Source of the DNA: Nautilus pompilius
Taxonomy: Eukaryota > Mollusca > Cephalopoda > Nautilida > Nautilidae
Reading direction: 5' to 3'
DNA: 64,000 bases
Assembly (NCBI GenBank): GCA_018389105.1
Contig: JACATO010002207.1
Location: 490,501 to 554,500, forward strand
A program made the position numbers and the translations under genes. This document shows, piece by piece, positions 3,471 through 55,156 of the stretch (position 1 is its first letter; each line of letters starts with the position of its first letter). A model generated the notes under the pieces. The model saw nothing but the letters and a program-made list of their open reading frames with translations, did no database searches and was not told the origin of the DNA.

Positions 3471-3812
3471 GTTTGTAAAGCAAAATAAAGGAAATAAATT
3501 ATTCATGTAAAGGAAAGAAAGATATTTTTAAAAAATTTGTTATGAATATTTAAGTAAATTTTAAAAAAAAGAAACAAATTCAAATAATATTAATAGTGAA
3601 GTCATTGAACACTTGGTTGCTCAGTTTTTTTTTCTTCTTCAAATTTGAAATTGCCAGCAGAATACAAAAAGACTTTTGGTTCCAGTGAACTAATAAAATG
3701 CAATTTTTGATAACCAAAAAAATATAACACTACTTGAGATGGAACATATATTCTTTCATAAATCTTTGCCATTAGATGCAACATGCAAAAGGTAGAACTG
3801 AAAAATGTACTA

Positions 3813-4297
3813 CAGGTTGAGAATCCCTTATTTGAAATCCTTGGGGGCAAATGTGTTTTGGATTCCAGAATTTTTCAGATTTTGGAATATAGATATACCA
3901 GCATAGTTTGGTAGCTAACCAACTGGGGAGTGGGGACTGGGCACAAGTTCATTTACAACATTATAACTGCATATGGATACATGTAGCATACAGGTAGTTT
4001 TATGCAATATGTTTTAATCATTTTGTGCATGAACCCATCAGAAAGGTAAGCCATCTTTATGGTAGGCCTACCTGTACCGTAGAGGTATTTGCAGGCCTTT
4101 TCGTCATTTTCAAAGTATATTCACACCAACAACAAAGCACAAAAATTACAGTGAGTAATGCGCAAAATGTCAATCGTGTCGGGACCCCTGAGCCACCAAA
4201 GAATCTTCTGGAATTTTTCACTGAAGGTGCTCCAAAAATATTTTGGATTTTGGAGCTTTGCAGTTTTCAGAATGTCGGATAAGGGATTCTCGACCTG
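3813..4297 (+). mobile_element. pogo/Tigger-like non-autonomous DNA transposon, copy 1
   Basis: The 485-bp element is flanked by TA on both sides (3811-3812 and 4298-4299). Its left end reads CAGGTTGAGAATCCCTTAT and its right end is the inverted complement (GGATAAGGGATTCTCGACCTG). The copy at 54661-55154 has the same termini and interior in opposite orientation. The interior lacks a transposase frame, so mobilisation would need an enzyme made elsewhere. TA duplication and the CAG...CTG ends with a TATCCG-type motif are established traits of pogo/Tigger elements. From memory, the ends and several internal blocks (for example ATTTTGTGCATGAA and CCATCAGAAAG) resemble a Tigger-type MITE of mammals. 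Confidence 0.9.
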
Positions 4298-4299
4298 TA

Positions 4300-15599: not shown

Positions 15600-17690
15600 A
15601 GAGAAACAATGTTGAGAGGAAAGTATTAGAAATTGAGGATATTAATGGTGATCATCCTGACTTCTGCAATTAATCCTATTTAGATTGTGAGGATTTGGAT
15701 AATGAATATCCTGAACAGAAGTGAAATCTTCAGATCTAGAGATAAAAAAATACAGTGGATGCATCTTCATGACCAAGGGTCAAGGCAGGCTGTCAAATGC
15801 AAACATTATCTAAATGGTTCCAGGATCTACTTGATAAGTTATAACATGCATACATGACATAAAATTGTTTCAATCTTTTCATGCCATCAACAATTGTAAT
15901 TTCATTCTGGAAATTACCAACTTGGAACGCAGGCATGTCTTTGGCAAAAAAATGGATTGACATTGATTGCATGTACATCCAAGCTTATTTTGGATTACTT
16001 TTGTTAGCAAGAATTTATAGGTTCAACAGAGAAGCAACTGCTAGCCTTTAGAATGCTGAAACTGGCTGGGTTCTGCTTCCTCGCCACCATGTCTCTTAAA
16101 GTGTTCCATAACATTGCTTAACTGATTCAATTTGACAATCATGAGACCAGATTCAGCTGGCATAAATGAGACAAAAAATTGACCACCATTTGAGAAGTAA
16201 GGAAAAAATGAGTTGAGATTTTGCCCCTGCTGTACAATCCAGGTTCAAATGTTACCATGAACGAACGTTTGGTCTTCTTCTTGGGGTGCTGTCCCTTAAG
16301 GCAGTAAATGCCTAATAAACCAAAACAGTACAATGTGAAGTTCTTGGTGGTCTGTGATGCCAAATCCAGCTATGTCTGGAACATTCAAGTGTACACTGGG
16401 AAACTGTCTGGCAAAGCCCTGAAATGTAATCAGGGGATGAACATGGTATTGGATATGTTCCAGAGATTACAAAGCCATAACATGGTGGATAATTATTTCA
16501 AAACATATTGGCTTATAGCCAAATTCCTGAAGAAAAATACAGAATGCTGGAGATGATAAAGGAAAGGGATCTGAAGCTTCCAGCAGATATCCTACAACTG
16601 AAAGATTGCGTAGTTCATTCATCCATATTTTTTTCATGCTGACAAATACAGTTGTTTCTCACCAAGCAAGAAACAACAAAACTGTTCTTGTTTATGAGTG
16701 CACTGCACAAGGATGAAAAGTCTATGGAGGAAACGAGAGGAAGTCCCACCTCATCAGACTATTGGCCAGCTAGACCTGCTAACGAGCCACCTGCTGGCCA
16801 ATACTGTTGTTCTACAAACAGTTAGCTGTGCCAACATACAATGCCTTTATCTTGTGGATAGAAATCCATTCAAAGAGGAACTCCAAAAAAACTGTCAGCA
16901 CAGACTTTTTCAGAGATGCTGGGGAAGGCTCTAATTGGACACCCCCCTATCAGAACCAGATCTGGGGTGCTTAGAGAACCTGTAGCAATTGCTTTGCTGC
17001 AGAATGTTCACACACCAGGTGAATGAATGTGCAACAGCAGCAGCAACTACCGGCCCTGTGGGGCAGGTTAGCTCCATAAGGGGACCGTTGCTCCTGTACC
17101 GGGTTCAATCCCAGGTTGGGGTCGGAGGAGGCTTGTCGCTGATGATCGCCATAGCGTGAAACAGCTGTACGGCATTTCCTTGGTGCCCAACGTGAGAGAG
17201 ACCTCCCGGGTCCTTGGGGCCCCCAGTGTCGGATGGACCGGGCCGCTTGTCGGCTCAACGAACATCTCCCAGTTACGAGGACTCGGCATTTGGACGTCCA
17301 ACTCGCTTAACAACAACAACAACAACAGCAACAGCAGCAGCCCGACGCGAGAGCGACCTCCAGGGTCCTTAGGCCCCCCTCCTCCCTGGTGTCGCATGGA
17401 CCGGGCCGCTTGTCGGCTCGACGAACATCTCTCAGTAACGAGGAGGACTCGACAGAGAACAGGCCACTTGTCTTTATGGGATGCAATGCCATTGGCAGAG
17501 CCTTGTTCGGAAGTCCAACTCGCTCAACAACAACAACAACAACAGCAGCAACTGGCGGGAATGGGAAAAAAATGAGCCAGATGCTGCTTTTGCCATCCAG
17601 CAATGACAACAAGATGAATAAGATGAATATCACCTAAGAGAGATGCAAAAAGCATTTCTGCAAACATAGCTTCACATTCTGCTTGTAATC
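15600..17690 (+). pseudogene. Decayed piggyBac-family transposase
   Basis: One reading frame, broken by several stops, follows the piggyBac order. An acidic N-terminal part lies near 15.62-15.72 kb, then YIQAYFGLLLLARIYR (from 15974), ATMSLKVFH and DNHETRFSWH, then LLYNPGSNVTMNERLVFF. That is followed by LRQ-stop-MPNKPKQYNVKF, CDAKSSYVWNIQVYTGK, MVDNYFKTYWLIAKFL and ANIQCLYLVDRNPF. The first catalytic Asp of the DDD triad is Asn here (AAC at 16260-16262). The second, in VDN, is kept (GAT 16488-16490). The third is uncertain. A Cys/His tail (RCKKHFCKHSFTFC) lies at about 17641-17682, beyond an inserted SINE. Stops at 16305-16307 and elsewhere show the gene is dead. Ends with TTAA duplications were not located. 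Confidence 0.9.
17049..17542 (+). mobile_element. GC-rich tRNA-derived SINE (family C) inserted in the piggyBac relic
   Basis: The head has an A-box-like GGTTAGCTCCATAAG (17066-17080) and a B box GGTTCAATCCC (17102-17112). The body is present twice: the block CGGGCCGCTTGTCGGCTC followed by ACGAACATCTC occurs near 17239 and again near 17401. Each body copy ends in GTCCAACTCGCT then (CAA)n. Identical flanks CAGCAGCAACT at 17038-17048 and 17543-17553 are the target-site duplication. The element splits the piggyBac catalytic region from its Cys-rich tail. Gln/Asn-rich open frames across it are read-through of the CAA tails, not genes. Confidence 0.85.
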
Positions 17691-54658: not shown

Positions 54659-54660
54659 TA

Positions 54661-55154
54661 CAGGTCAAGAATCCCTTATCCGAAATTCTGAAAACCAAAA
54701 AGCTCCAAATTTCGAAATATTTTTGAAGCGCCTTCAGTGGAAAATTCCAAAAGGTTCTTGGGTGGCTCACGAGTCCCGACCCACTTGATGTATGCACATT
54801 ACCCACCGTCATTTTTGTGCTTTGTTGTTGGTGTGAATATACGTTGAAAATGTCGAAAACACCTGCAAATACCTCTACGGTACAGGCAGGCCTACCATAG
54901 TGATAGCTTGCGTTTCTGATGGTTAAATGTACATCTTTTTCTAATGGGTTCATGCACAAAATGATTAAAACATATTGCATAAAACTACCCTGTAGGCTAC
55001 ATGTATCCATATGCAGTTATAATGTTGTAAATGAACTTGTGCCCAGTCCCCACTCCCCAGTTGGTTAGCTACCAAATTATGCCTGTATATCTATATTCCA
55101 AAATCTGAAACACATTCAGGCTCAGAGGATTTCGGATAAGGGATTCTCAACCTG
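54661..55154 (-). mobile_element. pogo/Tigger-like non-autonomous DNA transposon, copy 2 (inverted)
   Basis: TA flanks at 54659-54660 and 55155-55156. The left end CAGGTCAAGAATCCCTTATC and the right end (GATAAGGGATTCTCAACCTG) are inverted repeats. The 494-bp interior is the reverse complement of the 3813-4297 copy throughout, including TTCATGCACAAAATGATTAA and GTGCCCAGTCCCCACTCCCC. The 118-codon frame on the minus strand lies inside the element and is not matched to any transposase; I treat it as non-coding. Confidence 0.92.
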
Positions 55155-55156
55155 TA

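Follow-up and report, generated by a model that had tools for sequence, protein, structure and literature searches.

The window, by which we mean the whole 64-kb stretch of DNA analysed here, carries two copies of a short element that, judging from its sequence, probably represents a large non-autonomous pogo/Tigger-type MITE family of an invertebrate, with ends and one or more internal non-coding blocks that it has in common with a mammalian repeat at the ASNS gene through horizontal spread. We put the probability of this reading at roughly 0.7. One Tigger lineage would have spread horizontally into both hosts and would then have been amplified separately in each. Horizontal spread appears to be the best explanation because a non-coding body is common to such distant hosts, and a crossing between phyla would be the likeliest cause of the mammalian likeness.

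The two copies were found where the preliminary description had placed them. Copy A (485 bp; 3813-4297, plus strand; 86.9% to the family consensus) is flanked by TA at 3811-3812 and 4298-4299, while copy B (494 bp; 54661-55154, minus strand and thus in the opposite orientation; 89.2% to the consensus) is flanked by TA at 54659-54660 and 55155-55156. Both copies have CAGGT/ACCTG ends and can be aligned with each other from end to end with few gaps. The inverted repeats lie at 3813-3841 (plus) and 4269-4297 (minus) in copy A, and at 55126-55154 (minus, element-left) and 54661-54689 (plus, element-right) in copy B; counted with the TA, the inverted ends are 31 nt long and show 84% complementarity in copy A and 90% in copy B. 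The exact terminus first proposed, CAGGTTGAGTATCCCTTATC, is absent from A, B and the consensus, all of which read GAGAATCCC. When treated as single-stranded DNA, copy A folded better than 100 of 100 shuffles (z -4.65), a result to be expected from inverted ends. The window gave no match in Rfam and tRNA scans.

Two kinds of features were found inside these ends. The internal blocks of copy A (4020-4045, plus strand) consist of ATTTTGTGCATGAA at 4020-4033 and CCATCAGAAAG at 4035-4045, and those of copy B (54913-54962, minus strand) of ATTTTGTGCATGAA at 54949-54962 and CCATCAGAAA at 54913-54922. ATTTTGTGCATGAA is present in both copies, but the 11-base CCATCAGAAAG in A and not in B. Copy A also has a 41-nt subterminal direct repeat (3848-3888 and 4233-4273, both on the plus strand), the members of which are 71% alike and match a pair of TTTCGGATTTTGGA motifs located in the same orientation at consensus positions 59 and 451. 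From its sequence and position, this repeat is a possible candidate for a second transposase binding site.

We searched for the family in the genome from which the window comes (727.6 Mb in 2558 contigs). A first look gave 697 candidates with copy A as the query and 696 with copy B, and 40 were scored for each. Among these 40, identity was 76-84% (A) and 82-87% (B), the copies themselves and their near-identical duplicates on the same contig excepted, and 35/40 (A) and 39/40 (B) of the scored matches spanned the query approximately end to end. We fetched 38 loci (8/40 from the search with A and 30/40 from the search with B) and built a consensus from 36 of them, leaving out L002 and L010, which are duplicates of the window copies. 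This consensus is 507 bp long, and both its ends and its body are conserved. Within the window, it matched the two copies, and its other matches were short and weak (E 0.026 or worse). Of the 38 loci, 24 have TA at both edges of the matched stretch; TA is at the left edge in 33 and at the right edge in 28, several matches having been trimmed before the ends. The exact 28-base TIR pattern had 47 matches in the genome, versus 0 for the reversed control, which indicates that the inverted ends exceed chance.

The 36 copies, which come from the best-matching sample, showed a median K2P distance of 0.080 (0.050-0.110) from the consensus. As the sampled copies are the best matches, the age of the whole family probably exceeds what this value suggests, and the earlier proposal that the family crossed phyla recently is not supported when even such a sample has diverged to this extent. 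The inverted partner 50 kb away, also pointed out earlier, is real but not special: the 38 fetched loci, window copies and duplicates included, are split 19 to 19 in orientation, so that an inverted partner at this distance is what would be expected of a common repeat. Of note, the contig carries both MITE copies a second time 448 kb upstream (window 3813-55154 versus G000:C2105:46047-97539), with nearly the same spacing and with flanks identical in 3476/3492 and 3478/3499 aligned columns; either a large region has been duplicated or this is an artefact of assembly or haplotypes.

We also looked at COX1 in the host genome. The best match, L069, shares its contig with other matches of nuclear type and is for this reason probably a nuclear copy. 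In a comparison of L069 with a solved mammalian COX1, 3/6 ATA codons coincide with a conserved Met, 4/6 TGA codons with a conserved Trp and 1/3 AGA codons with a conserved Ser; two AAA sites that precede the decay of its frame were uninformative. This codon usage fits the invertebrate mitochondrial code, and speaks against a vertebrate (AGA) and against an echinoderm (ATA). The host may be a mollusc or another spiralian. A total of 117 COX1-like matches are spread over many contigs, and many of them are short and share an arrangement of one in-frame TGA and two in-frame TAA; they correspond either to many nuclear mitochondrial DNA copies or to a repeat derived from mitochondrial DNA.

The possibility of a gene inside the element was rejected. 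Stop-free stretches reach at most 94 codons in copy A, 118 in copy B and 93 in the consensus; no Pfam family was found for the longest ones of A and B, and a third stop-free stretch of 69 residues gave a single Pfam match far below the cut-off. The 93-codon frame of the consensus is open in 4/36 copies and broken in the other 32, and the length is not divisible by 3 in 23/36 copies. Substitutions in the 36 copies number 258, 288 and 290 at the three codon positions, a spread as in non-coding DNA. Elsewhere in the window (17068-17575), both strands have open frames whose translations include stretches of leucine, or of glutamine and asparagine; a simple repeat, and not a gene, is their probable source.

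Assignment to the Tigger-type MITEs, which had been suggested at the outset, is thus backed by the ends, the TA target, the copy number and the lack of a conserved frame. The elements are short, with inverted ends, a target duplication, a high copy number and no transposase gene, as MITEs are, and both window copies show the TA target site duplication of the Tc1/mariner-pogo group. The anatomy (no inner gene, TA targets and matched ends) points to cut-and-paste by a transposase acting in trans: a Tigger-type enzyme encoded elsewhere would bind the inverted ends, excise the element and insert it at TA.

A potential source of this enzyme was sought among the DDE_1 transposase matches in the genome (5074 candidates, 150 of which were scored, 150/150 being over the cut-off). 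We fetched 30 of the 150 scored loci, each as the match and about 1.5 kb on either side, and scanned them allowing 6 substitutions in 20 TIR bases. In none of the 30 loci did any site come closer to the TIR than 5 mismatches in 20. Two candidate partners, L052 (5 mismatches, no TA) and L049 (6 mismatches, after TA), look like chance and were rejected. Among these loci (L039-L068), 22/30 have, after TA, a different TIR belonging to one of three types, CAGTCAAAGCTCG (13 loci), CAGACGCTCCCCTAC or a close form (6 loci) and CAGTAGAACCTACG (3 loci), and are pogo-like transposons with DDE_1 frames. The autonomous partner of the MITE family may be unsampled or lost.

The mammalian likeness was assessed with independently printed sequence. 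A literature search with the TIR led to PMC7145870, in the passages of which the ASNS-RE3 primers and site are printed; the ASNS locus is inferred to be human from the gene name and the cells, and those passages do not term the ASNS-RE3 site a repeat. The TIR-side primer matches consensus positions 5-32 at 24/28 bases, and its partner, which was not among the search letters that led to the paper, matches positions 237-256 at 18/20, in the order and orientation expected. In copy A, CCATCAGAAAG sits beneath the match of one of these primers. The mammalian sequence aligned in this way amounts to 48 bases from one locus. No dinucleotide shuffle of 2000 reached the score of either primer with the consensus; for the TIR-side and partner primers, respectively, the counts were 0 and 1/2000 with copy A and 0 and 0/2000 with copy B. 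With score and position limits set in advance, the TIR-side primer was found at the expected place in 34/36 copies, the partner in 35/36 and both in 33/36. As a control, 8 other primers and 3 p53 sites from the same passage scored 10-20, versus 36 and 30 for the two primers. The 25-base ASNS-RE3 site itself had no match in the consensus, 1899/2000 shuffles being as good. A likeness that extends beyond the termini is supported by one internal piece, the partner primer, and not by the other, the RE3 site.

These matches have to be weighed against an ordinary Tigger-type MITE whose resemblance to mammals is limited to the ends and to short motifs that selection maintains for transposase binding, without any transfer. 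Binding constraint could act on the ends and on the subterminal motif TTTCGGATTTTGGA, Tigger elements are present in many animal phyla (PMC9219625, PMC7386202), and the unmatched RE3 site would also be in line with it; however, the partner primer matches about 200 bases from the nearer end, and we regard this explanation as unlikely. Assembly contamination or chance similarity is far less credible still and can be nearly dismissed, given the dozens of diverged copies with differing flanks on many contigs of one assembly, which speak against contamination, and the shuffles scored against the consensus (0/2000), which speak against chance. Further literature searches with pieces of the repeat led back to PMC7145870 and yielded no second mammalian locus; a TBX20 primer, a mouse Cactin primer and a TPH2 probe that they returned were chance-like and were not counted. 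Searched as one exact gapped pattern, the two internal blocks gave 0 matches in viral_contigs and genome_contigs, and the TIR gave 0 in viral_contigs.

The mammalian repeat at the ASNS gene is probably a MER2-like element. The MER2-like letters compared here are a reconstruction set down after the window had been read, and do not come from a database hit; an alignment to them is a lead and not a test. They agree with all three printed ASNS pieces at 31/34, 21/23 and 25/26 positions, RE3 included, and as the window family lacks RE3, the reconstruction is more than an echo of the window. Against the consensus, they agree at 211/246 ungapped positions on the left (183/216 beyond position 30) and at 61/70 at the right end; they align over about 270 bp as well as the right end. 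The score was 183, with a shuffle maximum of 34 (130 versus 34 without the first 40 bases), and the right-end score was 85 versus 24 (50 versus 26 without the last 30 bases). Scores against copies A and B were 116 and 104 and fell to 76 and 86 when the first 40 bases were left out, with shuffle maxima of 32-38.

A likeness in non-coding sequence across several hundred million years is unexpected without selection, which counts against another explanation, namely that one very old Tigger family was inherited vertically from the common ancestor of the host and mammals. The copies of the best-matching sample differ from their consensus by about 8% on average, which also argues against such an age, and we consider vertical inheritance highly improbable in spite of the wide distribution of Tigger elements in animals (PMC9219625). 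Under horizontal spread, the preferred reading, it is conceivable, at somewhat less than even odds, that the non-autonomous element itself, its non-coding body included, moved between the mammal lineage and the host, or from one donor to both, within the last 100 million years or so; this timing is a rough inference. If the non-autonomous element did move, a human repeat family would have a traceable invertebrate sister family, and if the match of the body holds against real mammalian copies, it would help in dating and placing the origin of the mammalian Tigger-type wave.

The class of event is already known, as a Tigger transfer between mammals and arthropods has been described from transposase genes (PMC9219625). 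According to that paper, Tigger is present in 180 species of invertebrates and 145 of vertebrates and has undergone 13 horizontal transfer events, of which the one between Eutheria and arthropods is the sole event between phyla. Tigger transposons were likewise found across many animal phyla in PMC7386202, Tigger1 and Tigger2 are distant from each other in the pogo tree of PMC7325037, MER2 is listed under Mariner/Tc1 in PMC5753468, and the passages of PMC10294476 name neither pogo nor Tigger. Literature searches that covered neither Repbase nor most journals turned up no MER2-like non-autonomous body described from an invertebrate.

Several known systems can be set beside the window family. 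With Tigger elements as described in passages of PMC9219625, PMC7325037 and PMC7386202, it has in common the TA target site and a TIR of about 20 bp, but it differs from them in having no transposase gene and no partner with its ends in the 30 fetched DDE_1 loci. The mammalian MER6 MITE (PMC6887750), compared here by description only, is also a Tc1/mariner MITE with a 24 bp TIR and a TA duplication, but it is 865 bp long and has a SINE V domain. The MER2-like repeat (ASNS-RE3, PMC7145870) differs from the invertebrate family in that its ASNS-RE3 site is without counterpart in the consensus and the family reads GAGAATCC where the ASNS primer has GAGTATCC; in addition, none of the reconstructed MER2-like pieces matches the middle of the consensus (about 270-435). 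The TIR-side primer and the internal ACCATCAGAAAG block are nevertheless common to both, in the same order and orientation.
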